Part shown: piece by piece, positions 2,280-16,037 of the stretch
How the letters are laid out: every line of letters starts with the position of its first letter
Position numbering within the stretch: position 1 is the stretch's first letter
NCBI GenBank assembly: GCA_021813405.1
Contig: JAKAKS010000021.1
Location: forward strand, 1 to 64,000
DNA: 64,000 nucleotides
Source of the DNA: Nitrospirota bacterium
GTDB taxonomy: Bacteria; Nitrospirota; Thermodesulfovibrionia; Thermodesulfovibrionales; JdFR-88
Direction of reading: 5' to 3'
Notes under the pieces: model-generated
What the model was told of the DNA's origin: nothing
The model's database searches: none
What the model saw: the letters and a program-made list of their open reading frames with translations, nothing else
Made by a program: the position numbers and the translations under genes

Positions 2280-3419
2280 TCATCCCCGCAAAAATTCCAT
2301 AACCTGCCTTTTTATCTCCAGGCTGTCCAGCGGGACAACAGGCGTATCCAGGTTTCCGGCAGCTGCCAGGGCGTGTATGAACCGGGGCCCTTTCCCGGCG
2401 GGTTTTTCAAGCAGGCGGGCAAGCTCTTCCTTATCGCCGGGCTTGAACGTATTGCGGATGCCAAACCCCCTGGCAACCATCTCCAGGTCCACACATGTGC
2501 CTGTAAACGTTGCCTGGCTGCCGGTGGAGCCGTAAACCCCGTTATCTATCGCAATAACGGTGAGGTTTTTTGGCGACAGACTGGCGGCGGTTGCCAGCAC
2601 GCCGGGATTCATAAGCAGGCTGCCGTCCCCATCTATTACCACCACTTCCTTGCCGGACGACAGCGCGATGCCAAGCCCGATCGGCGTTGCCATACCCATG
2701 CTGCCCAGCATGTAAAAGTGCGACGGCCTGTGCCCTGCGCTATATAGCTCCCTTGAAGGGAACCCCAGATTGCACACCACGGCCCTGCCTTCAAGAAACG
2801 GCCAGATGGCAGACAGCAGTTCGTGCCGTGCGGGTCTTTTCCCGCGCCGGGGCGATTGGCGTTCCGGGCAGGAAACCGGTGCGGACGGCCTTTTTTCCCG
2901 GGCTGGCGGCGGAGGCGGTTTCAATCCGGAACCTTCCCACACCGCCGGGCTTATGAGGAAGGCATGGGCCTTGTTGCCTGAGTAAACGCCTTCCAGTATC
3001 GAGGGCACCAATGCCAATGCCTCCACGGAGTCAACAGGAGTAAAGCCGATCTCCGCTCCTCTTAATACACCGGCGGCGTGCCTTCCCATGGGCACCTGGG
3101 CGGCAACCTGTTCCTTGTACACGCCCCTGTGGCTGATGAATATGGCAAGCGGAAGCCCATACAACCCCGTAAGCGACAGAAGCGCGTTAATCATGTTTCC
3201 AAGGCCGGAATTCTGGATGAACATGGCGGGCCTTTTTCCGGCAAGCGCCGCACCGGCGCAGATGCCAACACCCTCTTCCTCACGTGTAAGCGGCACGTGC
3301 CGGAAATTCTCCGCGATAAGCGGAATAAGGCACTTTATCCGGTCGCACGGCAGCGAGGCGGTAAAATCCACCCCGGCACCTTGCAATATCCGGATCAGCT
3401 CTTCTTCAGGGTTTCGCAC
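2280..3419 (-). CDS. comDE: Sulfopyruvate decarboxylase, fused alpha and beta parts (ComDE-type)
   Basis: A thiamin-diphosphate enzyme expected to decarboxylate 3-sulfopyruvate to sulfoacetaldehyde, a late step of coenzyme M synthesis. The N-terminal PYR-type half (about 1-165) carries SLPCDRIK and the glutamate stretch TREEEGVG that would activate ThDP. A Pro/Arg-rich linker (about 166-198) joins it to the PP-type half, which has the ThDP-Mg motif G264-D-G-S ending at D292-N293. In many archaea the halves are separate proteins (ComD, ComE); Methanosarcina has a fused form like this one. Starts at GTG, 25 nt inside the cysteate synthase gene, so translation is probably coupled. Last gene of the operon. 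Bacterial homologues also occur in sulfolactate breakdown, but the adjoining cysteate synthase argues for synthesis. Confidence 0.85.
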   Translation of the reverse strand: MRNPEEELIRILQGAGVDFTASLPCDRIKCLIPLIAENFRHVPLTREEEGVGICAGAALAGKRPAMFIQNSGLGNMINALLSLTGLYGLPLAIFISHRGVYKEQVAAQVPMGRHAAGVLRGAEIGFTPVDSVEALALVPSILEGVYSGNKAHAFLISPAVWEGSGLKPPPPPAREKRPSAPVSCPERQSPRRGKRPARHELLSAIWPFLEGRAVVCNLGFPSRELYSAGHRPSHFYMLGSMGMATPIGLGIALSSGKEVVVIDGDGSLLMNPGVLATAASLSPKNLTVIAIDNGVYGSTGSQATFTGTCVDLEMVARGFGIRNTFKPGDKEELARLLEKPAGKGPRFIHALAAAGNLDTPVVPLDSLEIKRQVMEFLRG

Positions 3420-4666
3420 AGGAGGTCCTCTATCTCCTTTTCGTGGATATCTTTTGAGATGATAGAAGGGCTTACGCGGTACACCGGCCTTTCACTGCGC
3501 AGCACAGCCTCGCCTCCCCCGGTTATATTCAGAAGCACGGGGCCGTCCTTGCCAATGTTTTTATATTTAACCGCCTGGATGAGCGCGGCAACGGCAACGC
3601 CGGCGGCAGGCACTATATCTGTTCCTTCGGCATCCTTGAAGAGTTCCATCGCGGCATATACTTCCTCATTGGCTACGCCGTACATAGCGCCGCCGGTTGC
3701 CTCCAACGCGTCGAAGACCCCGCCAAGCACCCCGTATGCGGGATAGCGGTTTGTAAGCACCCTGGTTGTAGTTTCGCCCACAAGGCTGAAGCTTATGTCC
3801 GCGGGGGATATCTCCCGGCTTTTCTTCCAGTACGCCTTTGCCATGGGCGCGAAGGGCAGGTTCTGTGCAAGATGAAGCACTGGAAGGCTGCTGCCGAATC
3901 TGCCGTCCGCCAGAAGCCTTTCGGCCATCTCCCAGACGGCTATCGCGCCTGCTCCGCTGCCCACCGCCTGGAAGTAATGGCGCGGAAGTTTTTTCATTAC
4001 GTCAGCCGCTTCCAGCAGCACCACGCCAAGCCCGTCTCTTTTTGCAATGTTTTTGACTCCGCCCTCAAACGGCATCCCGGAAACCAGGGCTATGCGCTTT
4101 GCGGTGGCTATGGAATCGGAGTAGTCGCCATCAGAGATTGCGATGGTGGGGACTGCACGCTCTTCCAGGTACCACATATCAGGCAGGCACATTGAAGGCA
4201 CAACTATTACCGCCCTGAACCCGGATACCTTTGCAAGGTGGGCAAAGGCCCTGGCCGTATTGCCCGCAGATGCAACCACCAGGCCTTCCATCTGGTTTTC
4301 AACGGCGTTTTGTATGACCATCGCGGCCTCAAACTCCTTGAACGTGCACGTTTTAAGCAGAGCGCCTTTTTCCGGCCAGTAGCCGCTGAACGAGATATAA
4401 AGCTCCTCAATTCCAAGCCTGCCTGCAAGCCCCGTTGAAAGGTATACAACGGGGCCGGGCTGGCCGAAGCCGGGCCTGTGCACTGGAAGCCAGTTGAACC
4501 TCCAGATATCTCCGCTCTGGCATATGCCCTCGCCGCGGTCCGTGGCAAATTGCCTGTCCGCGTATTGGGTAATCAGCAAGGCGTCCTTGCAGTGTTCGCA
4601 GAATGCGCAATAGGTGTTTTCTAGCACCTTGCCGCATTTGCGGCATTTGATCGAGAAATGGCTCAT
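3395..4666 (-). CDS. Cysteate synthase (threonine-synthase-like PLP enzyme)
   Basis: A 423-residue fold-type II PLP enzyme. The cysteate synthase family, known from Methanosarcinales, makes L-cysteate from O-phosphoserine and sulfite and so opens a route to coenzyme M that avoids phosphosulfolactate. The N-terminus has a Cys-rich knuckle (C8-x2-C11, C20-x2-C23-x2-C26), as in threonine-synthase relatives. The likely Schiff-base lysine is K110 in TFKEFEA, and SAGNT (133-137) would bind the PLP phosphate side. It lies directly upstream of the sulfopyruvate decarboxylase gene, as in Methanosarcina. A plain threonine synthase is the main alternative, but the context and the SGYWPEKG/TFKEFEA pattern favour cysteate synthase. 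Overlaps hdrD-like by 4 nt (ATGA). Confidence 0.8.
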   Translation of the reverse strand: MSHFSIKCRKCGKVLENTYCAFCEHCKDALLITQYADRQFATDRGEGICQSGDIWRFNWLPVHRPGFGQPGPVVYLSTGLAGRLGIEELYISFSGYWPEKGALLKTCTFKEFEAAMVIQNAVENQMEGLVVASAGNTARAFAHLAKVSGFRAVIVVPSMCLPDMWYLEERAVPTIAISDGDYSDSIATAKRIALVSGMPFEGGVKNIAKRDGLGVVLLEAADVMKKLPRHYFQAVGSGAGAIAVWEMAERLLADGRFGSSLPVLHLAQNLPFAPMAKAYWKKSREISPADISFSLVGETTTRVLTNRYPAYGVLGGVFDALEATGGAMYGVANEEVYAAMELFKDAEGTDIVPAAGVAVAALIQAVKYKNIGKDGPVLLNITGGGEAVLRSERPVYRVSPSIISKDIHEKEIEDLLCETLKKS

Positions 4667-5874
4667 AGTACCCCCGATAATAATTCCATCACGTCCACTA
4701 TCTTCACCTGTTTCTCATAGCCGGACATGGCCTCGTTTACCTTACCGTAGCAGGCCGGGCAGCCAAGCACAAGCCTGCCTGCCTTTTTTTCGTACGCCTC
4801 GTCTATGGTAAGCCTGCCAATAGCAACCGCATTCTCATGGAAAACCTTTCTGGCCGCGCCCCCGGCCCCGCAGCATCGGGAATTGGCCCTGTTCCTGGTG
4901 AATTCAAGAAGTTGCACCCCGGGTATCTTTTTAAGGATGGCCCTGGGCTCTTCGGTTATTCCAACGCCCCTGCTCAGGTAGCAGGGGTCATGATAGATAA
5001 TACTCTCTGCGATGGGCGCTATTGGGGAAATCCTGCCTTCTTCAAGGGCCGCGAGAACGTACTGGCTAATATGCCTTATGCCAAATGGCAGCTTGCGGCC
5101 GTAGAAGTGCGGCCAGTCCCGCGCGATCATGTTTACGCAGCACGGGCAGGAGCAGACAAGGGTTTTTACCCCCCTTTGGGCATAACCTTCCACAAGCCTT
5201 TTTACAAGCCCCTCAAGCAGCTCGAACTGTCCGGTAACAAACAGCGGGAACCCGCAGCAGACCTCCTCTTCCGGCGGAAGCATCGTAAACGGCCTGCCGA
5301 TCTTTCCAATCACCGTCACGTCGCCTTTCACCATCGGGATGGCGTCATATGCGCCGGTGCATCCGGTGTAATAACCTATTTCTGCTTTTTCAGCCACTTT
5401 AACTTCAGCCGGGAACCAGGGTGCAAACCTCTGCGCCGCTGGCTTGCCGTATGGGTTTCCGGTCCTCCTCACGTCTTCTGGCATATCGCGCTGCGCCCCT
5501 ACGGGGCCGATGCCGCGCAGGACCATTTCCCTTCTAAGCATGGGCCATAGCCGCTGGGTGTAAATACCTACGCTGCATGTCTTGCCGCAGGCCCCGCAGG
5601 TTGTGCATTCAAAGACCGCCCTGGTGAAATCCTCCAGCAGTCCCCTGTCAACATCCCGTGCCCCAAGGACAAACGATTTCAGCCCGCGAGTTTTTTTTAT
5701 GAAGTCCCTGAAGGCGCGTATCTTTGCGGGCGGGGAGACCTGGCGGTTCCCGGTCACTTCCTGCACGGGGCAGTTTTTAAGGCATTCGCCGCATTGCGTG
5801 CAGGCGTCCAGCTCCATATGCTGGAGCGCCGAGAGGCAGCCGGCAAACATTTTTTTATTCCTGTTTTCCGCCAT
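4663..5874 (-). CDS. hdrD: HdrD-like heterodisulfide reductase iron-sulfur subunit
   Basis: A 403-residue protein with the full layout of archaeal HdrD. Two 4Fe-4S ferredoxin motifs (C25/28/31/35 and C90/93/96/100) come first, then two CCG domains. CCG1 has C172, C206-C207 and the C241-C246 cluster; CCG2 has C298, C334-C335 and C372/C375. The spacings (33-36 residues) fit the family pattern, so both cluster sites look intact. In methanogens HdrDE takes electrons from a membrane carrier to reduce the CoM-S-S-CoB disulfide. Here it sits beside the cytochrome b gene and two CoM-synthesis genes. CoB synthesis genes are not in the window, so the actual disulfide is unknown. Alternatives are GlcF- or LldE-like dehydrogenase subunits. 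Overlaps the cytochrome gene by 20 nt. Confidence 0.75.
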   Translation of the reverse strand: MAENRNKKMFAGCLSALQHMELDACTQCGECLKNCPVQEVTGNRQVSPPAKIRAFRDFIKKTRGLKSFVLGARDVDRGLLEDFTRAVFECTTCGACGKTCSVGIYTQRLWPMLRREMVLRGIGPVGAQRDMPEDVRRTGNPYGKPAAQRFAPWFPAEVKVAEKAEIGYYTGCTGAYDAIPMVKGDVTVIGKIGRPFTMLPPEEEVCCGFPLFVTGQFELLEGLVKRLVEGYAQRGVKTLVCSCPCCVNMIARDWPHFYGRKLPFGIRHISQYVLAALEEGRISPIAPIAESIIYHDPCYLSRGVGITEEPRAILKKIPGVQLLEFTRNRANSRCCGAGGAARKVFHENAVAIGRLTIDEAYEKKAGRLVLGCPACYGKVNEAMSGYEKQVKIVDVMELLSGVL

Positions 5875-6547
5875 GGATCAGTTCCTCAAGTTCTTTGTCT
5901 CTCTTGCCGGCCTGGTAAATGGTAAGCGGCGCGGCAAATATGTGGGTGGGAAGAAACGGCAGGATTATCAGGACCAGGCAGAAATGGATTATAAAGGGCA
6001 GGCTATCAGGCGCTGCCGCTGCGTGTAACCTTAGCGCGCCAGCTATGAAATCCTTTATCTGCGCCACATCCGGATAGAAGAATGTTCTCATGATAACGCC
6101 CGCCGCGCTCACCAGGAGAAATCCGGCTAACAGGAAATAGTTATAGGCAAACACGTACCTGCCCCGGTTGAATATGGCCTTTACGATAATGATATACAGA
6201 AGCGACAGCGGCATAATGTACCCGGCAACTCCGCCAATCCGCTGGGTTGCCCATATGAACGGCGGAACAGGCGAAAGGAAGTATTTCAAATGCCTGATAA
6301 TTACAAGCAACAGGCTTGCATGAAACACCCATTCGCCAAGCCAGATGGCCGGGTTTTCCCGGAAGAGCCGGCGCAGAAGCAGTATTTCCGGCACTGCGGC
6401 GATAACCGCCCTCCATCGCAAGCCCTGATGTGTTTCTCCGGTCCTGACGGACCGCCGTAACCAGGGCGCAATATGAACAAGCATCTTTATGGCAAAGGCC
6501 GCAAACGCCAGGGCGGCGGCCCACATGAGGATATTTCCAACAACCAT
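5855..6547 (-). CDS. hdrE: HdrE-like / NarI-type membrane cytochrome b
   Basis: A 230-residue integral membrane protein with about five to six hydrophobic helices (near 4-25, 70-90, 105-130, 135-155 and 185-205). Possible haem-ligand histidines lie in helical contexts: H25, H40, FHAS and RHLKYF, then IHFCL and PTHIF. Size and pattern match the NarI/HdrE/DsrM cytochrome b family, which passes electrons between the quinone pool and an iron-sulfur partner. Its partner is the adjoining HdrD-like subunit. The pair would form a membrane-bound thiol/disulfide oxidoreductase; the direction of electron flow cannot be told from sequence. The gene follows the small Cys protein by 11 nt. Confidence 0.75.
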   Translation of the reverse strand: MVVGNILMWAAALAFAAFAIKMLVHIAPWLRRSVRTGETHQGLRWRAVIAAVPEILLLRRLFRENPAIWLGEWVFHASLLLVIIRHLKYFLSPVPPFIWATQRIGGVAGYIMPLSLLYIIIVKAIFNRGRYVFAYNYFLLAGFLLVSAAGVIMRTFFYPDVAQIKDFIAGALRLHAAAAPDSLPFIIHFCLVLIILPFLPTHIFAAPLTIYQAGKRDKELEELIHGGKQE

Positions 6548-6558
6548 TTTCCGCCTGT

Positions 6559-6876
6559 TTATTTTTTGAACTTCATCGTAATTTCCTTGGGGATGGCAAA
6601 GCCCGCCTCAACTTCCAGGGCCTTTATAATCGCGCCTGGAACGGGGCACGCCACATGTTTTAAATTCGTGGCGGCCGCCTTGTACACTGGATTATTCAAG
6701 AAGTGTGTAAAGGCTGTAGCCATGCTGTCAAGCACAGCTAATTCCGTTGCCATCCTTTTGACCATTTCGCAATCCGTTTCTATATGCAAGTGCAGCTTGC
6801 CCTTCTGTTCTGTTTTCTCCACCCTGATCCTGGAGCAGAATCCGCACGCGCCTGAATTCACATCCAGCCTTGTCAT
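6559..6876 (-). CDS. Small cysteine-containing protein of the methyltransferase operon
   Basis: A 105-residue soluble protein. The N-terminus has NSGACGFCSRI, with later cysteines in TDCEM and HVACPVPG, so it could hold a metal or a small cluster. There is no signal peptide. I recall small proteins of this kind (GACGF near the N-terminus, then ETDCE and CPVP motifs) near corrinoid methyltransferase genes, possibly the DUF6951 family, but I am not certain. It overlaps the activator gene by 4 nt (ATGA) and precedes the HdrE-like gene by 11 nt, so it is co-translated with both. The role is unknown; a link between corrinoid activation and thiol chemistry is a guess. Confidence 0.65.
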   Translation of the reverse strand: MTRLDVNSGACGFCSRIRVEKTEQKGKLHLHIETDCEMVKRMATELAVLDSMATAFTHFLNNPVYKAAATNLKHVACPVPGAIIKALEVEAGFAIPKEITMKFKK

Positions 6877-8870
6877 CCTTTTACCGCCGCCGCGGAAGGG
6901 GCCCTGCCTTTCTCCAGCAAAGCCTTCAGATTAGGAAACCCGTCTTTCATGTGCGGCAGGTGCATGGCATAAGTGAACTCCTTTTCAAACCGCGGCTCCA
7001 CGGCTATCTCCACAAACTCCACCCAGCGGGCGCGCTCATTGGCCTCGCGCCTTTTGGTCAGGTTGATAAGCGCCATCCTTGCGCCGTCGCCCGCGGCATT
7101 GCCCACCGCGTACACGTTATCTATCTGGCAGTCCGGGAACATGCCAAGTGTCATGGCGGCCTCCTTGTCTATATAGCTTCCAAAGGCGCCGGCCAGTATT
7201 ACCTTGTCCAGCTTTTCTATTCCCATCTTCTGCATCATCAGCTTGGCCCCTGCATACAGCGCCGCCTTTGCCAGCTGGAGGGCGCGCACGTCAGACTGCG
7301 TAATGGTCACGTCCGCGCCGATGGATGTTTCGTTGGCCCAGGCAAGCACGTATTCGGGCTTGCCGTCATGGTCTCTCCTTATTCTGGGGCTGTTGACATT
7401 CATGTCGAACTTGCCGGATTTATCTATGATGCCGGCCTTGAACATCTCCGCTATCGCATCTATGATGCCGGAGCCGCATATCCCCTTGGCCCCAAGCTTG
7501 TCCTTTTTAATATTCCAGTCCGCCGTGTGCCAGTCTTCTTTGCCGATTATTTTGAACAGGGGCTCTTTGTTTTCCGGGTTTATCCGCACCTTCTCTATTG
7601 CGCCCGGGGCGGCGCGCATCCCCATTTTTATCTGTGCGCCCTCGAATGCCGGGCCGGTGGCGCAGGACGTGGAGCATACTTTATCCTTGTTGCCAAGCAG
7701 AAGCTCCCCGTTTGTCCCTATATCGATTATCAGCACCTTTTCGTCCTGGTTATACGGCTCCTCCGCGATAAGTACGCCAACATTGTCTGCCCCAACAAAG
7801 CCTGCCTCTATGGGCAGCACATAGATATACGAGCCGGGATTAATCCTGATGCCCAGGTCCCTGGCCTTTATGTCCAGTTCGTTCTGTACTGCCGGGATGA
7901 ATGGGGAGCGCCCGATATGCTCCGGATTAAACCCGAGGAATATATGGTGCATGGCTGTGTTGAAGACTATCGTCAGGTCAACTATCTGCTGTCCGCCGTC
8001 TCCCGAACCGTCCGGGTTCAAATCTTTAGTGACGTTTGAGATTATCTCGTTAAGGCCGTCTATTATCGCCTTCTGCATCTTCTCTATGCCGTCCGGGTTC
8101 ATCATGGCGTATGTTATGCGGGACATCACGTCCTCGCCATAAGGCACCTGCGGGTTCATCATGGATTCCGTATTAATCACCTTGCCTGTTGCAAGATCGG
8201 TCAGGTAGCCCACAACTGTTGTGGTGCCCACGTCCACGGCAAGGCCGTAGGCGGACTCTACGAACCCGGGTTCCGCCTTGATTATCTCCCTGCCCTTCCA
8301 TACCGAGACCGTTATGCTCCAGCTGCCCTTTCTTATTGCGTCCTGAAGGGTTTTAAGGACCGTGAAATCCATGGATAGCCCCTTGAGGCCGTACTGTTTT
8401 TCAAGCGCTGCGCCAAGCCTTTCCAGGTCACCAGTGATGGGCTCATGCAATGATGGTTTGGCCAGCTCCACAAAATATTTTTTCACTGCCGGGTCTATGG
8501 ATATGGCAAGCTCCTTGGCGGCCTTTCTTACAATCTGCTTGCCGGCCCTGGATTTTTCCGGCACGAATATCTTCGCGTCGCCTTTCACGTGGCAGGCGCA
8601 TGCAAGCCGCATCGAAGGCCCGTCGGCTGGTTTGAGAAATTTTCTCTCAGTATCGGTAAGCGGGCTTAAGTGCGCCATTCTGGAGTCCATCGAGTCCTTC
8701 TCGAAATAGCCTTCCTCAACCCGTACCTTGCATTTTCCGCACGTCCCCTTGCCGCCGCAGATGGATTCTATGTCCACCCCTAGGTTTCTGGCCGCATCCA
8801 GCAGGTTTGTGCCGTCTGCGACCTCACCTCTCCTGCCCGACGGCTGAAAGATTATCCTGTGGTTTTTCAT
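6873..8870 (-). CDS. RACo-type reductive activator of corrinoid proteins
   Basis: A 665-residue two-part protein. Residues 1-100 form a plant-type 2Fe-2S ferredoxin (C38-x5-C44-x2-C47, then C91). From about 210 to the end runs an ASKHA/actin-like ATPase domain (DUF4445), with the phosphate-binding DVGTTTVVGYL and a second IDIGTNGELLLG. RACo proteins use ATP hydrolysis to push one electron into corrinoid proteins whose cobalt has slipped to Co(II), restoring active Co(I). The target is presumably the corrinoid protein encoded two genes upstream. Starts with AGGAGG and an ATG that shares its A with the stop of the previous gene (TAATG). Full length for the family. The archaeal counterpart RamA is unrelated to this 2Fe-2S type. 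Confidence 0.88.
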   Translation of the reverse strand: MKNHRIIFQPSGRRGEVADGTNLLDAARNLGVDIESICGGKGTCGKCKVRVEEGYFEKDSMDSRMAHLSPLTDTERKFLKPADGPSMRLACACHVKGDAKIFVPEKSRAGKQIVRKAAKELAISIDPAVKKYFVELAKPSLHEPITGDLERLGAALEKQYGLKGLSMDFTVLKTLQDAIRKGSWSITVSVWKGREIIKAEPGFVESAYGLAVDVGTTTVVGYLTDLATGKVINTESMMNPQVPYGEDVMSRITYAMMNPDGIEKMQKAIIDGLNEIISNVTKDLNPDGSGDGGQQIVDLTIVFNTAMHHIFLGFNPEHIGRSPFIPAVQNELDIKARDLGIRINPGSYIYVLPIEAGFVGADNVGVLIAEEPYNQDEKVLIIDIGTNGELLLGNKDKVCSTSCATGPAFEGAQIKMGMRAAPGAIEKVRINPENKEPLFKIIGKEDWHTADWNIKKDKLGAKGICGSGIIDAIAEMFKAGIIDKSGKFDMNVNSPRIRRDHDGKPEYVLAWANETSIGADVTITQSDVRALQLAKAALYAGAKLMMQKMGIEKLDKVILAGAFGSYIDKEAAMTLGMFPDCQIDNVYAVGNAAGDGARMALINLTKRREANERARWVEFVEIAVEPRFEKEFTYAMHLPHMKDGFPNLKALLEKGRAPSAAAVKG

Positions 8871-9544
8871 TATTCCTCCGCCAATGCCGCCTCCACGCGC
8901 CGGGGCGGTTTAATCATGTTATTTCTGCTGAAAGGGCATATATTTATGCAAAGCCCGCAGTTGGGTTTCCCTTCAGTGGGTCTGCTGTTTTTTTTATGCG
9001 CGGCGCATCTTTTTATCCTGACAAGCTCCGCGTAAGGGTCTTCCTGACACCACTGCCTGCCGGTAATGGCCTGGGAGGGACAGTGGTCAATACATAAGGT
9101 GCATTCCCCGCACAAGCTGTTAATAATAGGCTGGCCGGTTTTGAGCGGGGCATCCGTAAGAACGGTTGCAAGCGAGATGCGGGAGCCGTGAACGGGGCTT
9201 ATGAGAAGCCCGTTTTTCCCTATCCAGCCCAGGCCCGAAAGTGTTGCCGCCACCTTGTGCGTGAAGAGGGGGTAAAGCCTGGATATAAACGGTTTTTCGC
9301 CTGCGGCCCTGTCGGAATCCGGAGGTATGCAGAGGTATCTGTATCCCCTTTCCTTCAGCTTGGTGGCGGCAATCTTCTGAAGCCGCCCAAGCAGATGCAC
9401 GGTATCTTCATTCAGCTTTTTAATAACTCCAATGGATATAGCCCTGTCCAAGTGCGCAATATCCCCCTTTACGATGCCCCCCACATCGGCGAAACCGGCC
9501 ACACTGGCCCCGGATTCAAGCAGCTCTGCCCTCAATGAGTCCAT
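8870..9544 (-). CDS. QueG-like double 4Fe-4S protein
   Basis: A 224-residue soluble protein resembling the C-terminal two thirds of epoxyqueuosine reductase (QueG). Landmarks are LGWIGKNGLLISPVHGSRI, then CGECTLCIDHCP and CGLCINICPF with an extra upstream cysteine in RCAAHKK; together these could ligate two 4Fe-4S clusters. QueG uses cobalamin, and short relatives of this type are common beside corrinoid methyltransferases, where they are thought to move electrons to corrinoid or activator. Here it lies between the corrinoid-protein and activator genes, 3 nt after the first and sharing one base with the second. It is shorter than true QueG (about 350 residues) and lacks the HEAT-like tail, so a tRNA role is unlikely. 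Confidence 0.7.
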   Translation of the reverse strand: MDSLRAELLESGASVAGFADVGGIVKGDIAHLDRAISIGVIKKLNEDTVHLLGRLQKIAATKLKERGYRYLCIPPDSDRAAGEKPFISRLYPLFTHKVAATLSGLGWIGKNGLLISPVHGSRISLATVLTDAPLKTGQPIINSLCGECTLCIDHCPSQAITGRQWCQEDPYAELVRIKRCAAHKKNSRPTEGKPNCGLCINICPFSRNNMIKPPRRVEAALAEE

Positions 9545-9547
9545 CTG

Positions 9548-10240
9548 TTATGCCCGTTTCCTGGCGTCCGCCTCTTCCTTCATTTTCTTGAGCGAGCTTA
9601 CCATGTTTATGGCATCCTTCAGGGCGTTGTTGGCGTCCTTCGCGTAGCCGTCGGCGCCCCATTTCTCGGCGATGTCCGCGGATACGGGCGCGCCGCCTAT
9701 CATTATTTTTACATTGGGGTTTTTGGACTTGATCTCGTCTATTATCTTTTTCATGCCAACCATCGTAGTGGTCATCATGGCCGACAGGCAGACCAGGTCC
9801 GAATCCGTGCGGAGCTGCTCCTCTATAAATTTATCCAGCGGCACGTCTCTGCCAAGGTCGTATACCGTAAAGCCCGCAACGTCGAACATCATCTTGACGA
9901 TATTTTTGCCGATGTCGTGCACATCGCCCTCCACAGTGCCTATAACCACGGAGCCTTTAACCCCAAGGTCCAGCTGCTGGACGTGTGGCTTTAAAATATC
10001 CAGCCCGGCATAAAGCGCGTCGGCGGACATCAGGAGCTCCGGCACAAAGTACTCCTGGGCCTCAAAGAGCCTGCCCACCTCTTCCATGCCGCTTACAAGC
10101 CCGTTGAATATGGCCTCGTTGGCATCCATGCCAATTTCCACAACCTCATTGGATGCCTCCTTGGACGCATCTTCGTCATACTGGATGACGGCGTTTTTGA
10201 GCCGCTCCAACAGCTCCTGTTTCTTTTCATCCGTTACCAT
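9548..10240 (-). CDS. Methyltransferase cognate corrinoid protein (MtaC/MtbC/MttC-like)
   Basis: A 230-residue protein with a four-helix cap (about 5-90) and a Rossmann-like B12 domain (about 95-215). The base-off/His-on motif is D106-V-H108-D-I-G111, so H108 would be the lower cobalt ligand; the SAMM and GGAPVS stretches complete the usual SxL and GG motifs. It would shuttle the methyl group between the MtrH-type and MtaA-type enzymes encoded directly upstream. It is the only corrinoid protein in the operon, although there are two MtaA-type partners, so it probably serves both. Overlaps the preceding methyltransferase gene by 7 nt; RBS GGAGG. Confidence 0.92.
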   Translation of the reverse strand: MVTDEKKQELLERLKNAVIQYDEDASKEASNEVVEIGMDANEAIFNGLVSGMEEVGRLFEAQEYFVPELLMSADALYAGLDILKPHVQQLDLGVKGSVVIGTVEGDVHDIGKNIVKMMFDVAGFTVYDLGRDVPLDKFIEEQLRTDSDLVCLSAMMTTTMVGMKKIIDEIKSKNPNVKIMIGGAPVSADIAEKWGADGYAKDANNALKDAINMVSSLKKMKEEADARKRA

Positions 10241-11280
10241 CTCTGCCTCCTGTAATTTGTAACCTCATCTAGCATTGCCCTTATGTTTTCCACGGGTACC
10301 GTGGGCCATATGTCGCATCCGGGCCACACGGCGTCCACGCCGTCGTCCACGCATTTGCGTACCGCCTGGCGCACCATCTCCGTTGAGCCGGAGACAAGCA
10401 CGTTATAGGGGTCGTAATTGCCAAAGAGCAGGGCGTTTCCAATCTTCTTCCTGGTCTCGGCCACGTCGTTTTTCTGGTCCACGCTGATGGCGGTGGCGCC
10501 GGATTCCACCATGAAACCCGCTATGTCATTTGTCTTGCCGCATACGTGGAGGACCGAATGGCTCTTTATTGCTCCGAATATTTTTTTAAGGTACGGAAGT
10601 ATAAGGCTCTTGAACACCCTGGGGCTGAGCACGTCTGAGGTGGCGCCCATCTCCCTAACGGTTATATAATCCGCTCCGGCCTCCACGAACTGCTGCGTGC
10701 AGAGTATTATTGCGTCTGCAAGGGTGTCAAGGAGCTTTCCAACCTTGTCGGGCTTCTTGAACGAGAGCTTCAGCAAATCGTTCAATTCCATTATCTGTCC
10801 GGCAAGTGTGAAGGGGCCAAGCACGTAGGAGCCCACGGCCACCTCGCCGCCTATATCGGCCTTAAGGAGCCTTAGGGCCTCCTTCACAAGCGGGATGCGC
10901 CCCCTTTTAACGAAATCAGCCGGTACCGTAATGGCGCCCATCTCCTCTTCGTTGTGGGCGATCTTCTGTTTTATGGTGGGATAGAGTATGTCGTCCACGT
11001 GGGCGTAAACGTTTATCTCGCACCCCAGGGCCTGTGCCTCCACGCAAAGGTCGAAGGGGGCCACGCCGCACTCAAACCCGGTAAGCCTGTAGGTTTGGGC
11101 GGCGGCATCCGCCATCATCTTTGCGTCCGAATGCAGGGCGGCGAACTTGTAGCCGAATTGCCCCAGCCCAGCGGTGGTGACGTTGCCCATGCCGCTGAAG
11201 CAAGGCGGCCTGTCTACCTTCTCCCCCGAAAACAGCTTCAACACCCTTTCCCTTCGCGTCATCGTTCCTGTCTCGGACAT
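10234..11280 (-). CDS. MtaA/MtbA-type (UroD-fold) methyltransferase, copy 1
   Basis: A 348-residue uroporphyrinogen-decarboxylase-fold protein. It has the zinc motif of methylcobamide:CoM methyltransferases, H245-x-C247 and C322 (LHVCGK, then WPGCDI). In that family zinc binds and activates the thiol of coenzyme M so that it accepts the methyl from a corrinoid. An open frame continues upstream to 11604, but the family N-terminus (MTRRERVLKLFSGEKVDRPP) and the site AAGGAG before ATG at 11280 fix the start. Genuine UroD is unlikely because of the HxC...C motif and the neighbours. CoM is inferred as the thiol because CoM-synthesis genes lie in the same operon. Confidence 0.85.
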   Translation of the reverse strand: MSETGTMTRRERVLKLFSGEKVDRPPCFSGMGNVTTAGLGQFGYKFAALHSDAKMMADAAAQTYRLTGFECGVAPFDLCVEAQALGCEINVYAHVDDILYPTIKQKIAHNEEEMGAITVPADFVKRGRIPLVKEALRLLKADIGGEVAVGSYVLGPFTLAGQIMELNDLLKLSFKKPDKVGKLLDTLADAIILCTQQFVEAGADYITVREMGATSDVLSPRVFKSLILPYLKKIFGAIKSHSVLHVCGKTNDIAGFMVESGATAISVDQKNDVAETRKKIGNALLFGNYDPYNVLVSGSTEMVRQAVRKCVDDGVDAVWPGCDIWPTVPVENIRAMLDEVTNYRRQRW

Positions 11281-11294
11281 TAGGATTCTCCTTT

Positions 11295-12242
11295 TTATTT
11301 CCTTGCCCCGCCCGCAAGCAGTTTTTCTATGAAGTCCGGAAAGAACTTCCTTATGGGCAGGTTTTCGTTTTCCGCAATTGCGTTTGTCTCCGTGTACACC
11401 AGCGTGGAAAGCAGTATGTGCGCCGTGGCCACCGCCGGGAATATCCTGGGTGCCGTCACTATCGGTCCGTAAAAGTTGAAATCGCTCCATAGCACGCTGG
11501 ACATGCCTTGGGCAACGGCGTCCATGGCCCTGAACCCGTCCAGCCCCCAGGTTTCCTTGCATTCCTTCCACATATGCGTGCCGTTGGAGTACGCGCCGCC
11601 GCACGGCAGCCCCAGTTTTTCCTTTATCAGTTTGTTTGCAACCAGGGACAAGGACGTGGCAGGCAGGTTCATCACGGATGTATCGACTATTATGGAATCG
11701 AAAGAGTCCGCGCCATTGGCCAGTATGCTTTCCAGTGATTTAAGCCTTCCGGCCGGGGACTGGTCCTTGTCGTCAAAGGCCTGAATCACAACGTGCTTTA
11801 TCCCCAGGTCCTTGAGCTTTTGCACCTGCCCTTTAACGTCCTTGTCCCATGGGGTAATGCTGTTATAAAGGAAGCGGTCCTGCGCGCCTATTTTTGATAT
11901 ATATTCAGTCGCCTTCGCCCTCTGCTCTGCCACCCACATATCTATGCCGAAGGGCATGGCGGAATTTTCAAGGAAAAAATCTATATAAGCCCTGGCCTCA
12001 TCCGGCGTGTTTGCCACCATCGCAACCATGCCGGGGATGCCGGTTGATCTGGAAAGCTCTTCCTGCTTCTTTATAAGCTCAATGGCCTTGGGCCTGTCGA
12101 AATTGCCCTTCCTGTCCGCCAATATCCGGTCCTTGTTATGGAACATGGAGGCGATAAGCAGGGGCGGGTTATCGCCCGGCTTGCCGCCGACTACCGCACC
12201 GCCTATGTTGAAGACCTTCTGGCCGGAGGTGAACTTAAACAT
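11295..12242 (-). CDS. MtrH-family methyltransferase (methyl-pterin:corrinoid)
   Basis: A 315-residue TIM-barrel-type protein matching subunit H of tetrahydromethanopterin S-methyltransferase (N-terminal FNIGGAVVGGKPGDNPPLLIASMFH; later CGGAYSNGTHMW). MtrH moves the methyl between tetrahydromethanopterin and the corrinoid; bacterial relatives (MtgA type) use tetrahydrofolate. Stand-alone MtrH with a soluble corrinoid protein and an MtaA-type enzyme could do in solution what the eight-subunit membrane Mtr complex does in methanogens. None of the other Mtr subunits is present. It sits 14 nt upstream of MtaA copy 1 and is preceded by a terminator-like hairpin. Confidence 0.85.
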   Translation of the reverse strand: MFKFTSGQKVFNIGGAVVGGKPGDNPPLLIASMFHNKDRILADRKGNFDRPKAIELIKKQEELSRSTGIPGMVAMVANTPDEARAYIDFFLENSAMPFGIDMWVAEQRAKATEYISKIGAQDRFLYNSITPWDKDVKGQVQKLKDLGIKHVVIQAFDDKDQSPAGRLKSLESILANGADSFDSIIVDTSVMNLPATSLSLVANKLIKEKLGLPCGGAYSNGTHMWKECKETWGLDGFRAMDAVAQGMSSVLWSDFNFYGPIVTAPRIFPAVATAHILLSTLVYTETNAIAENENLPIRKFFPDFIEKLLAGGARK

Positions 12243-12259
12243 TTATTCTCCTTTAAGTG

Positions 12260-12290
12260 AAAAAGACGGGGCGCACTTCAAGCGCGCCCC
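12260..12290 (-). terminator. Terminator-like hairpin inside the methyltransferase operon
   Basis: On the minus strand GGGGCGC (12290-12284) pairs with GCGCCCC (12274-12268) and is followed by GTCTTTTT. It lies in the 55-bp gap between the CMD-family and MtrH genes. A partial terminator or RNA-processing site here could set different levels for the upstream three genes and the downstream ten. Confidence 0.6.
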
Positions 12291-12297
12291 TCATCTC

Positions 12298-12744
12298 TCA
12301 GAATACCCCGTGATCGAACTTGGGCTGAGGCAGGTATTCCCATTTCTCGCCCTTCCTGTACTTGGCCTCTATATCCAGGCACTTGAGCGCGTATTCAAAA
12401 GCATACGGAATGCCGGGGCCGCCGGGCACAAAGCCCGCCAGTATCATTCCCACTGCCGCCGCCTCGAATATCTCTCCCGTTGTGGCGCCGGCGTTTATGG
12501 CCGGGATAACGTGGATTATGCACCTTGGCGAGCAATAGCCCACGCCGCCGGCCATGAACATCAGCTCCTTATGCTTCCTTGAAAGCGCACCGTCGCCGAA
12601 TATGCTTTCATAAAAATCGGCAAACGTCCTGCCCGGTTCCGGGGTGACTGTGTTTATTATCTGGAACATTCTCGGCACAAAGCCGCACTTCTGCTTCATA
12701 TACGCGTTTACTTCATCAACTGTCATTTTTTTGGCTTCAGCCAT
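12298..12744 (-). CDS. AhpD/carboxymuconolactone-decarboxylase-fold protein
   Basis: A 148-residue protein of the CMD family (MFMAGGVGYCSPRCIIHVIPAINAGAT core). The redox motif is C71-x3-C75-x2-H78, not the C-x2-C-x3-H of AhpD, with E60 in the usual proton-relay place. C20 in QKCGFVPRM is additional. AhpD-like proteins reduce disulfides or peroxides. In a thiol-cofactor operon it could act on the CoM disulfide or guard the corrinoid, but this is inference. An open frame runs upstream to 12966, but AAGGAGG before ATG 12744 and the family length decide the start. It lies 70 nt after MtaA copy 2. Confidence 0.75.
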   Translation of the reverse strand: MAEAKKMTVDEVNAYMKQKCGFVPRMFQIINTVTPEPGRTFADFYESIFGDGALSRKHKELMFMAGGVGYCSPRCIIHVIPAINAGATTGEIFEAAAVGMILAGFVPGGPGIPYAFEYALKCLDIEAKYRKGEKWEYLPQPKFDHGVF

Positions 12745-12814
12745 TCTGGTTTCCTCCTTGTGTCTCGTTTTTGACTTTAGCGCGCTGTCGAACTGGTTTG
12801 CTTCACCTCCTTTT

Positions 12815-13843
12815 TTAAAATTTCCATTCCCTGGCAACCTGCATGAATTTCTGAATGTTTTCGTATGGCACTGTGGGCGGGATATCGCAGCCGGGCATGA
12901 GGACGAACCCCCCGTCAGTCCCAACTGTGCGGATGGTTTCCTTGCAGGCCGCCTCCACTTCGGCAACGCTGCCGTTAAGCATTATCTTTACAGGGTCTAC
13001 GTTGCCGCCAAAGCACATCTTGCCGTGCAGCAGCTCCTTTGCCTTAAGCATGTCGGTCTTGTGGTCCAGGCTTATGCAGCTGGCCCCGGTAAGCGGGAAA
13101 AGGTCCAGCCGGTCCGTGGTATTGCCGCAAATATGCACAAGCGTATGTGCCCCCTTGCCCTTGGCCCAGTCCGTGAATTTCTTTAAATACGGGAGCGCGA
13201 ACCTCTCAAACTGTTTTTTGGAGATAAGGTCGCCCGATGCGGTGGGGTCTGCAAGGCTTACTACCTTGAGGGTGCCGTCATTCAGCAGCGGCTCATAAAC
13301 GCGCATCAGCACTTGTGTGGCGAAGTCCACCAGTTTCTCCACGAACGCCGGCTTCTTGAAGGTGGCCTTCATCATCGCCTCCTCTCCAACAAGGCGGGCA
13401 GCCAGCGTAAACGGCCCCCAGGCCGTAAGTGTAATCACGTAGTCGTTTCCGATTTTGGCGTTTGCGATGCGGGCGGCCTCCCGCGTTGTCTCGATTACCG
13501 GGTTGGAGTCTATCCTGCCAATATCCAGTTTCTGGATGTCTTCTTCCGCGGCGACCAGCGGCGCTTCAAGGTCAGGCGCGCCCATCTCCCTGAATTTCAT
13601 CTGGCCGCCCATGGCCGCCGCGTGGAAGTTGTTGTATCCGGAACCGCTGTATACAACGTCGCACAGAAGTCTTCCGGACATGGCAATAAGCATGTCCGCC
13701 ATCTTCGTTTTGTCCTCGGAAAGGTCTTTGAAAGTGGAGCCGTAGCCCTTGATGCTCCACATGCCAGCCCCAAAGAGCGTGGCCGGTACCCTGTCTGCCT
13801 TGCCCCCCTCAAAAGCCTTCAAAATGATCTGCTTAGGTGTCAT
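12815..13843 (-). CDS. MtaA/MtbA-type (UroD-fold) methyltransferase, copy 2
   Basis: A 342-residue paralogue of the protein at 10234-11280, with the same zinc set: H237-x-C239 (VHICGN) and C319 (MPGCDI). The two copies are clearly diverged in the substrate-facing N-terminal half (AGMWSIKGYGSTFKD here), so they may transfer the methyl to or from different partners. For example, one may act on CoM and the other may demethylate an unknown substrate. Starts at ATG overlapping the stop of the receiver gene by 4 nt. Same strand and operon as the CoM-synthesis genes. Confidence 0.83.
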   Translation of the reverse strand: MTPKQIILKAFEGGKADRVPATLFGAGMWSIKGYGSTFKDLSEDKTKMADMLIAMSGRLLCDVVYSGSGYNNFHAAAMGGQMKFREMGAPDLEAPLVAAEEDIQKLDIGRIDSNPVIETTREAARIANAKIGNDYVITLTAWGPFTLAARLVGEEAMMKATFKKPAFVEKLVDFATQVLMRVYEPLLNDGTLKVVSLADPTASGDLISKKQFERFALPYLKKFTDWAKGKGAHTLVHICGNTTDRLDLFPLTGASCISLDHKTDMLKAKELLHGKMCFGGNVDPVKIMLNGSVAEVEAACKETIRTVGTDGGFVLMPGCDIPPTVPYENIQKFMQVAREWKF

Positions 13844-14217
13844 GATGCCCTCTCATAGATTTTTTTATTTTGATTGCTTGTATCCTGCATGCCGCAGACC
13901 GCGCGGATGGTTTTCCTTAATATCTCCAGGTCCACTGGTCCCTCGATGCCCACCGTCCCGGCCTGGGACGTGGCCTTGCCCATTACAAGCACCGGCAGCC
14001 CCGGGCAGACCGCCTTCATCGCCCGCGCGGCGTCCTCGGTTGTAATTCCGAAAGGCCAGCAGTCAATTACAGCGGCCGCGTACTCCTTGCGCATTACCAT
14101 CCGGAACGCCGAGGCCGGATGGTCTGTAACCTCCACGCTGAACCCGTCCTGCGTCAATATGGCGTACAGGTTTTTAATCAGAATCGGGTCGTAAGCACAG
14201 ATGAGCACGTTATTCAT
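13840..14217 (-). CDS. Stand-alone atypical receiver-domain protein
   Basis: A 125-residue protein with the alpha/beta pattern of a response-regulator receiver (MNNVLICAYDPILIKNLYAIL, then AAVIDCWPFG). The phospho-acceptor would be D52, and GK in LVMGKAT could be the conserved lysine. The acidic pair that binds magnesium is reduced to one D10, so phosphorylation is doubtful. There is no output domain. It is the first gene of the methyltransferase operon (4-nt ATGA overlap with MtaA copy 2) and begins only about 15 bp after the -12 element of a sigma-54-type promoter, which leaves almost no leader. An upstream open frame to 14358 crosses that promoter and is not used. Confidence 0.65.
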   Translation of the reverse strand: MNNVLICAYDPILIKNLYAILTQDGFSVEVTDHPASAFRMVMRKEYAAAVIDCWPFGITTEDAARAMKAVCPGLPVLVMGKATSQAGTVGIEGPVDLEILRKTIRAVCGMQDTSNQNKKIYERAS

Positions 14218-14231
14218 AACGCCTTGTATAC

Positions 14232-14245
14232 GCAATACTTGTGCC
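14232..14245 (-). promoter_or_regulatory. Sigma-54-type promoter of the methyltransferase/CoM operon
   Basis: The minus strand reads GGCAC-AAGTA-TTGC, matching the -24 GG and -12 GC elements with exact N5 spacing. It would start transcription about 3 nt before the first ATG (14217), giving a nearly leaderless first gene. An NtrC-family activator gene lies 0.5 kb upstream. Confidence 0.6.
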
Positions 14246-14318
14246 TGAGAAGCGTTTTCGAAAAGCTGCCGGATTACAAGGGGTTTTGAAGCCAAGTAAA
14301 AAAAGGTGTTAAGCAGTG

Positions 14319-14708: not shown

Positions 14709-16037
14709 TCAGGCCTCCACGCCGTATTTGCGCAGTTTCAGGTAAAGTGTCTTGCGGTCTATGCCAAGTATCTGGCTGGTCTTGGACTGGTTGCCGCCCG
14801 ATGCGCCAAGCACCCTCAGGATATAATCCTTCTCCATCTCCTCAAGCGAGGGCTGGTATCCATCTGAATGTGCATGCTCCGGGATGAGAAGTTCCTTTTT
14901 ATCTATCACCCCGGTATCCGAAAGTATTATGGCCCGTTCCATGATATTTTCCAGTTCCCTTACGTTGCCGGGCCATTTGTAATTAACGAGCGCCTGGAGC
15001 GCCGCTTTTTCCAGGCGTCCGGCAGGCTTGGAAAACTTGCGGCCGTATTTATCAAGGAAATAAACGGCCAGTTCCTCGATGTCCTCCGGGCGCTCCCTCA
15101 AAGGCGGCATAGTTACGGAGAAGACGTTTAACCTGTATAAAAGGTCTTCCCGGAAACCGCCTTCCTTTATGAGGGCCGTCAAATCCCGGTTGCTTGCCGC
15201 GATCATCCGCACGTCCACGCTTAGGTTCTTTTCGCCGCCAACCCGCCTGAACTCCCCGGAGTCCAGGAACCGCAGAAGTTTGGCCTGGAGTTTCAATGGC
15301 ATCTCGCCAATCTCGTCCAGAAAAAGAGTGCCCTTGTCGGCTACTTCCACTATGCCGTTTTTTGTGCGATAAGCGTCCGTGAAGGCGCCCCTCTCATGCC
15401 CGAACAGCTCGGACTCCATCAGGTTTTCAGACAATGTGGCGCAGTTAAGCGCTATTAGTGGCAGGGCGCGTCTTTTGCTGTTGCGCCACACGATATTGGC
15501 CGCAAGCTCCTTGCCAGTGCCGCTTTCGCCGTGGATGAATACGGGTGAGTCCGTGGGGGCCACCTTTTTTATATAAGCTAATATCGAGTCCATCTGCCTG
15601 CTTTTGTACACAAACCTGGCGGAGGACTCCTTTCTTACAAGCTCCTGCTGGAGGAGGCTGGACTTCATTGCCAGCTTGCCGTACTCGAAGGCCCTGTTTA
15701 TCACCACCGCCAGCTCTTCCAGCTTGCAGGGTTTTGTCAGGTAATCGTATGCGCCGTTTTTCATGGCCTCCACGGCGGTCTCCACGGTCGCTTTTCCGGT
15801 AAGCACTATTATGGCCGGCGCGGCTGGGTCCCCTTTAAGCTTTTTCATAAACGAGATGCCGTCCACGCCGGGCATAACTATATCCAGGAGGATAGCGTCG
15901 TAGGCGTTTTCCTTTACAAGCGCAAGGGCCTCATCCGCACCGGAGGCGGTCTCAACAAAAAAACCTTTCCGGGCAAGCTCCCGCTTTAAAAGCCTTCTGA
16001 ACGGCTCCTCGTCATCTACAGCAAGTATCTTTATCAT
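14709..16037 (-). CDS. NtrC-family sigma-54-dependent response regulator
   Basis: A 442-residue protein with a receiver (about 1-118, phospho-acceptor D52 in LLDIVMPG), an AAA+ domain (about 140-370) with Walker A GESGTGKE and the sigma-54-contact loop GAFTDA, and a Fis-type helix-turn-helix (about 395-440, NQSKTSQILGIDRKTLYLKL). It is cognate to the histidine kinase whose gene it overlaps by 4 nt. It would activate sigma-54 promoters after phosphorylation. Its nearest candidate target is the methyltransferase operon, which has a sigma-54-type promoter and three dyads 0.4 kb away. However, the gene pair also ends a long housekeeping run (lon to M50), so its regulon may be wider. Confidence 0.93.
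   Translation of the reverse strand: MIKILAVDDEEPFRRLLKRELARKGFFVETASGADEALALVKENAYDAILLDIVMPGVDGISFMKKLKGDPAAPAIIVLTGKATVETAVEAMKNGAYDYLTKPCKLEELAVVINRAFEYGKLAMKSSLLQQELVRKESSARFVYKSRQMDSILAYIKKVAPTDSPVFIHGESGTGKELAANIVWRNSKRRALPLIALNCATLSENLMESELFGHERGAFTDAYRTKNGIVEVADKGTLFLDEIGEMPLKLQAKLLRFLDSGEFRRVGGEKNLSVDVRMIAASNRDLTALIKEGGFREDLLYRLNVFSVTMPPLRERPEDIEELAVYFLDKYGRKFSKPAGRLEKAALQALVNYKWPGNVRELENIMERAIILSDTGVIDKKELLIPEHAHSDGYQPSLEEMEKDYILRVLGASGGNQSKTSQILGIDRKTLYLKLRKYGVEA

Follow-up and report, generated by a model that had tools for sequence, protein, structure and literature searches.

The 64,000-nt stretch of DNA analysed here (the window; positions 1 to 64,000 of contig JAKAKS010000021.1, labelled C30) belongs to a Nitrospirota metagenome-assembled genome (MAG) of the class Thermodesulfovibrionia, labelled G000, with an assembly of 2.9 Mb and 100% completeness. 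It contains an operon of 13 minus-strand open reading frames (ORFs) spanning 2280-14217, from rec (start at 14217) to comDE (stop at 2280), in which homologues of coenzyme M (CoM) synthesis genes stand beside corrinoid methyltransferase genes and an HdrDE-type enzyme. Seven of the 12 gene junctions overlap, by 1-25 nt each, in agreement with the first-pass annotation of this DNA, which had described thirteen same-strand genes with overlaps of that size. The features of the operon and its upstream region are as follows.

2280-3419, minus strand: comDE, fused alpha and beta parts of sulfopyruvate decarboxylase (sulfopyruvate to sulfoacetaldehyde; TIGR03845, TIGR03846)
3395-4666, minus strand: cysS, cysteate synthase (phosphoserine and sulfite to cysteate; TIGR03844 and maximum-likelihood (ML) tree)
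4663-5874, minus strand: hdrD-like gene, two [4Fe-4S] clusters and two complete CCG domains (family scans, conserved cysteines, tree)
5855-6547, minus strand: hdrE-like membrane cytochrome b gene, four conserved His (partial DsrM-type match; five predicted transmembrane (TM) segments)
6559-6876, minus strand: DUF6951 small Cys/His protein (PF22263, 107.6 bits; conserved C11, C36, H74, C77)
6873-8870, minus strand: RACo/AcsV-type corrinoid reductive activase (family scans)
8870-9544, minus strand: QueG/RDH-like 2x[4Fe-4S] protein (family scans; eight conserved Cys)
9548-10240, minus strand: MtaC/MtgC-type corrinoid protein (TIGR02370, 205 bits; invariant His108)
10234-11280, minus strand: mtaA1, methylcobamide:CoM methyltransferase type (PRK06252; Zn site His245-Cys247-Cys322)
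11295-12242, minus strand: mtrH, methyl-pterin/folate:corrinoid methyltransferase (PF02007, 175 bits)
12298-12744, minus strand: AhpD/CMD-family protein (PF02627; kept in the cassette and in Hydrothermarchaeota)
12815-13843, minus strand: mtaA2, second MtaA-like methyltransferase (URO-D, 199 bits; closest solved structure 4ay7)
13840-14217, minus strand: rec, small receiver-like protein, encoded first in the operon (kept upstream of mtaA2 in relatives)
14231-14246, minus strand: sigma-54 (-24/-12) promoter AGGCACAAGTATTGCG, 13 nt before the rec start codon
14709-16037, minus strand: NtrC-type sigma-54 response regulator (Pfam)
16034-17992, minus strand: PAS/GAF histidine kinase (Pfam)

The gene names proposed earlier were backed by the family scans, which added the AhpD-like gene, DUF6951 and the QueG/RDH-like Fe-S protein, the last a possible electron donor to the activase. 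CysS reached 446 bits with TIGR03844 (cut-off 325), and at most 75 bits with threonine synthase models. ComDE obtained 188.7 bits with TIGR03845 (cut-off 148) and 213.2 bits with TIGR03846, about 8 bits below the cut-off of 221.5, and fell far below the cut-off of the phosphonopyruvate decarboxylase model. The top-scoring model for the HdrD-like protein was TfrB of the CoM/coenzyme B (CoB) fumarate reductase. In the HdrE-like protein His76, His86, His188 and His202 were conserved, while sequence resemblance to known HdrE was weak.

MtaA1 passed the cut-off of the methylcobalamin:CoM model PRK06252 (271 bits, cut-off 244), its closest solved structure was 4ay7 MtaA, and its zinc site was invariant across 30 loci; it stayed below the MtaA and MtbA equivalog cut-offs (247.6 bits versus 400, and 179 versus 600). 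The zinc site of MtaA2, a substrate-variable protein, was conserved as well (His237-Cys239-Cys319), and both proteins thus share the UroD fold and His-Cys-Cys zinc site of the soluble CoM methyltransferases MtaA, MtbA and MtsA. This site is the mark of S/Se-methyltransferases (Kountz and Balskus, PMC10418091). For MtrH, the closest solved structures were 8z9u MtrH and 6sj8, a methylcorrinoid:tetrahydrofolate (THF) methyltransferase. Methyl-CoM reductase (MCR), reported earlier as missing, was absent not only from the window: McrA (PF02249) had no match in the whole assembly, with both methanogen controls positive.

An ML tree built from 62 sequences placed the cysteate synthases of Nitrospirota in a single clade (100/100) on its archaeal side, sister to that of Hydrothermarchaeota (100/95), apart from the Bacteroidota clade known from sulfonolipid synthesis and distant from threonine synthase. 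Threonine synthase was therefore ruled out by both score and tree, and a sulfonolipid (capnine)-type cysteate synthase by its separate clade. The HdrD of the cassette joined that of Hydrothermarchaeota (100/100) and then methanogen HdrD (95/98), the gene of which adjoins a 5-6 TM protein in loci L255, L257 and L258. The cassette protein retains both CCG motifs and two [4Fe-4S] motifs, with its HdrE partner encoded adjacently. Other CCG paralogues of G000 reached just 53 bits, and a CCG/DsrM-like paralogue fell in another clade. DsrMK of the DsrMKJOP complex was ruled out, as the DsrK model gave 69 bits against a cut-off of 400 and HdrD did not group with DsrK. The caveat of the first-pass annotation that the synthesis genes might belong to threonine synthase or another family is thereby excluded, and scans and trees alike support its view of an operon joining two Methanosarcina-type CoM-pathway genes to MtrH, corrinoid protein, MtaA and an HdrDE-type enzyme.

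A cassette of 12 to 13 genes in the order mtaA2-ahpD-mtrH-mtaA1-corrinoid-FeS-RACo-DUF6951-(folD)-hdrE-hdrD-cysS-comDE was found in a group of subsurface bacteria. The order was essentially intact at 28 of 40 loci of the class (counted by eye), and contig ends break most of the remainder; in G179 and G180, cysS-comDE was separate from the rest (L044, L056). MtrH, MtaA1, the corrinoid protein and RACo made up the constant core. Cysteate synthase over cut-off was present in 71 of the 231 class genomes and MtrH in 77, mostly the same ones, whereas carbon monoxide dehydrogenase/acetyl-CoA synthase (CODH/ACS) was present in 200, G000 included, so that the cassette is accessory on a Wood-Ljungdahl background. 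Additionally, folD lay between DUF6951 and hdrE in seven of the 40 loci and metF near the cassette in several genomes, which ties the cassette to folate one-carbon (C1) chemistry. Since the order recurs across the class and in named MAGs, two of which are closed, with single-contig genomes included (G009, which belongs to another family; L095/L096, i.e. CP070788/CP070737), a chance origin is excluded. The resemblance of the genes to archaeal ones might suggest an assembly chimera, with archaeal genes mis-binned into a bacterial MAG, an explanation given practically no weight: the same cassette occurs in dozens of class genomes of many genera, its genes form a distinct monophyletic bacterial clade, and contamination is refuted by the single-contig genomes that carry it.

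Some loci depart from this pattern. In a Thermodesulfovibrio-labelled MAG, a methyl-accepting chemotaxis-like gene (recognised by eye) lies between DUF6951 and hdrE (L093:6512-8062), and in G044 (L156:4294-11642) c10, a gene described below, is found with DUF362-ferredoxin, DsrE, OsmC, MetF and CobW-like genes between the kinase/regulator pair and the cassette. The top-scoring MtrH homologue of the class stands alone among unrelated neighbours in G109, without a cassette (L246:1590-2510). Cysteate synthase homologues of WOR-3, Aminicenantes and a cyanobacterium (L111, L113, L142) had no comDE or cassette genes nearby.

The operon is preceded by regulatory elements. Sigma-54 sites comparable to that of the window were located 11-17 nt ahead of rec in 13 of 19 loci, a score matched by 0.2% of shuffled sequences. 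The NtrC-type regulator and the PAS/GAF kinase share the orientation of the operon, and several relatives also have them ahead of the cassette. Downstream of comDE, the terminator scan was at chance level.

The last step of CoM synthesis is carried out in Methanosarcina by MMP16/ComF, a COG1900 protein that turns sulfoacetaldehyde into CoM (PMC12068725), and all three archaea with cysteate synthase that were checked (Methanococcoides and one MAG each of Methanosarcinales and Methanophagales) had COG1900. Another gene, c10, followed cysteate synthase in its distribution. It is located outside the window in G000 (C29:21398-22339), encodes an NMT1/SsuA-family protein with no signal peptide (N-terminus judged by eye), and lay directly 3′ of cysS-comDE in all four Hydrothermarchaeota loci. 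The set of class genomes with c10 was nearly identical to those with MtrH and cysS: 70 genomes had both c10 and cysteate synthase, 3 and 5 were discordant, and 153 had neither (Fisher p 5e-49, ignoring phylogeny and counting two genomes whose cysS is partial). At least six genera (g3, g8, g68, g78, g114, g115) held both double-positive and double-negative members by inspection, some negatives being incomplete MAGs, which indicates that the pair was gained or lost together repeatedly. The predicted model of c10 (predicted local distance difference test, pLDDT, 86) was closest to the sulfonate-binding proteins SsuA and TauA and to the enzyme Thi5, and many His residues (H7, H13, H78, H116 and H207) were invariant, with Cys248 nearly so. 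On this basis, c10 is a candidate for a cytosolic SsuA/Thi5-fold CoM synthase that would replace ComF. The conserved neighbours of remote c10 copies included no sulfur-transfer partner. In Methanococcoides vulcani (L229:5781-13872), a c10 homologue (47% to Hydrothermarchaeota c10) is situated among sulfate-assimilation genes, with genes for a SAMP/MoaD-like sulfur carrier, threonine synthase and a UbaA-like E1.

A sulfonate ABC importer (SsuA/TauC/TauB-like) was inserted at differing points of the cassette in G004, G181, G041 and G035, the sulfonate-type importers covering the following positions.

L250:3895-6565
L212:3466-6048
L062:2583-5121
L068:6709-9289

Its SsuA-family protein is a secreted one and was over cut-off in the two cases scanned; a scan identified the permease and ATPase of G004, while those of the other genomes were recognised from their position. 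Two of these genomes, G004 and G181, had no cysteate synthase over cut-off. CoM starvation of M. acetivorans jointly induces cs, comDE, hdrABC and a transporter specific for CoM, SsuAC (PMC12068725). Taken together, the importers, the two genomes without cysS and the M. acetivorans transporter point to a cassette that needs a sulfonate cofactor, made or imported, for which CoM is the obvious candidate.

A sulfonate product other than CoM is nevertheless conceivable, if unlikely: as in type 1 mlp clusters, methyl-S/Se compounds would be demethylated with folate as the acceptor, cysteate or sulfoacetaldehyde would give isethionate or taurine, and HdrDE would act on another disulfide. The absence of ComF speaks for such a product, as do the type 1 mlp clusters, which use MtaA-like proteins without CoM genes (PMC10418091), and the Bacteroidota cysteate synthase, which serves other products. 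Against it, cysteate synthase and HdrD fall with their archaeal CoM-pathway counterparts rather than with the Bacteroidota or DsrK ones, MtaA1 exceeds the cut-off of the methylcobalamin:CoM model, and no sulfoacetaldehyde-consuming partner is conserved within the cassette.

A counterpart of the cassette was found in Hydrothermarchaeota, where mtaA1-corrinoid-RACo-mtrH-hdrE has DUF6951, mtaA2, ahpD and hdrD nearby and cysS-comDE-c10 form a separate operon. The genes are the same as in the bacteria, but scattered over separate loci; the C1 carrier is tetrahydromethanopterin (H4MPT) in place of THF, and an F420-type FrhB-like gene is a neighbour. Bacteria and Archaea therefore share the module, whether or not the folate additions accompany it. 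Hydrothermarchaeota are without MCR, and Carr et al. (PMC6775978) noted that they carry mtrH but no mcr, raising an “alternate fate” of methyl-CoM as a possibility. It is possible, although we put this forward tentatively, that Thermodesulfovibrionia and Hydrothermarchaeota share an MCR-free methyl-CoM metabolism, in which methyl groups would be exchanged between CoM and C1 pterins, HdrDE would connect CoM thiols with the quinone pool, and CoM would be completed by the c10 family in place of ComF. OsmC, DsrE and CobW-like genes were seen near the Hydrothermarchaeota module too (L241-L243). The matching archaeal module, c10, the sigma-54 promoter with its regulators, and the FolD/MetF and sulfonate-importer additions had all been missed by the first-pass annotation.

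We consider it probable, with moderate confidence, that the window carries a sigma-54-regulated operon for CoM-dependent S-methyl exchange with THF, together with an HdrDE-type thiol/disulfide:quinone enzyme, in a bacterium without MCR; CoM-coupled methyl transfer as such is likely. Cysteate synthase, a general aminotransferase and ComDE would convert phosphoserine and sulfite to cysteate, sulfopyruvate and sulfoacetaldehyde, from which a non-ComF enzyme, most plausibly c10, would complete CoM. MtaA1 would move methyl groups between CoM-SH and the corrinoid protein, kept in the Co(I) state by RACo with the Fe-S protein, and MtrH between corrinoid and THF, so that methyl-CoM would be joined to MetF, FolD and the Wood-Ljungdahl pathway. 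Acting together, MtaA1, the corrinoid protein and MtrH would do in soluble form what Mtr/CmtA does in archaea. MtaA2 may feed or drain a second methyl-S (or Se) substrate, and HdrDE would couple CoM thiol/disulfide to the menaquinone pool by electron exchange.

Several observations weigh against this account. ComF/COG1900 (PF01837) was absent from G000 and 59 of 60 relatives, with positive controls, and the same held for four Hydrothermarchaeota and six more genomes with the cassette; the final step is thus without a proven enzyme, and CoM production is not established. Moreover, c10 may do something else, as it was present in five class genomes without detected cysS and, in Methanococcoides vulcani, alongside COG1900, which makes a plain one-for-one substitution of ComF by c10 less likely. 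No strong sigma-54 site was found upstream of c10 in the 40 loci scored, leaving membership of a sigma-54 regulon unsupported, and hdrDE was missing at the locus in G030 (L073) and in L102. Finally, we know of no cassette enzyme that generates CoM disulfide. The first-pass annotation had proposed a bacterial methyl-CoM cycle; its CoM-type gene set stands, whereas the cycle, for want of a cassette enzyme known to make the disulfide from methyl-CoM, is as little established as CoM production.

For the proposed CoM-dependent exchange the oxidative direction is favoured, with a methyl-S substrate passing via methyl-THF to CO2 or acetyl-CoA and thiol electrons to quinone. Three points favour this direction: the company of FolD and MetF, the lack of a methyl-CoM-consuming enzyme, and the potential of menaquinone (about -74 mV), which lies above that of the CoM disulfide (CoM-S-S-CoB, about -140 mV) and makes thiol oxidation downhill. 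By the same potentials, reductive running is less easily accommodated and is judged a minor possibility; methyl-THF from CO2 or formate would then methylate CoM, methyl-CoM or a methylated thiol would be a carbon or electron sink, and HdrDE would reduce CoM disulfide. The FolD and MetF neighbours and the full CODH/ACS background permit both directions, and M. acetivorans runs methyl transfer reductively with fused corrinoid proteins (CmtA/MtsDFH), but reduction would call for a methyl-CoM-consuming enzyme, none of which is known here. The conserved AhpD-like gene, and the antioxidant role of CoM in Methanosarcina (PMC12713407), could instead suggest that CoM is chiefly a low-molecular-weight redox thiol, kept reduced by HdrDE and the AhpD-like protein, with methyl transfer secondary; as the constant core consists of MtrH, MtaA1, corrinoid protein and RACo, joined by FolD, this is regarded as improbable.

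The cassette consists of homologues of known parts in a new combination. As in the Methanosarcina type 2 CoM pathway, cysteate synthase and ComDE genes are adjacent and in the same order, and related SsuA-family transporters occur; here, however, the genes are bacterial, without COG1900 ComF, and part of a methyl-transfer/HdrDE operon. With Methanosarcinales HdrDE the enzyme shares the HdrD clade, two CCG domains and a membrane cytochrome b partner, but it has no MCR, no known CoB partner, and presumably menaquinone instead of methanophenazine. The type 1 mlp clusters, likewise of anaerobes, have several MtaA-like S-methyltransferases, a corrinoid protein and a RACE activase, but no folate methyltransferase in the cluster, and genes for CoM synthesis, MtrH or Hdr do not appear in their description (PMC10418091). 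In comparison with the Mtr complex and CmtA, the net transfer from methyl-pterin to CoM via corrinoid would be the same, but it would be achieved by soluble MtrH, MtaC-type and MtaA-type proteins, as the operon encodes no membrane MtrA-G. Xanthobacter epoxide metabolism also uses bacterial CoM, but with another synthesis pathway and for another purpose (alkene/epoxide carboxylation).

CoM is known from methane- and alkane-metabolising archaea and a few alkene-using bacteria, and a literature search, partial in coverage, returned no description of the cassette or of such CoM use in bacteria. If the proposed reading is true, methyl-CoM would gain a further use, in a widespread bacterial operon that combines CoM synthesis and CoM-type methyl transfer with HdrDE but has no MCR, with c10 as a concrete, testable candidate for the CoM synthase still to be assigned. 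MtrH, HdrDE or CoM genes in a metagenome should then not be taken by themselves for methane metabolism, and the operon would bear on the spread of methanogenesis modules between the domains of life.

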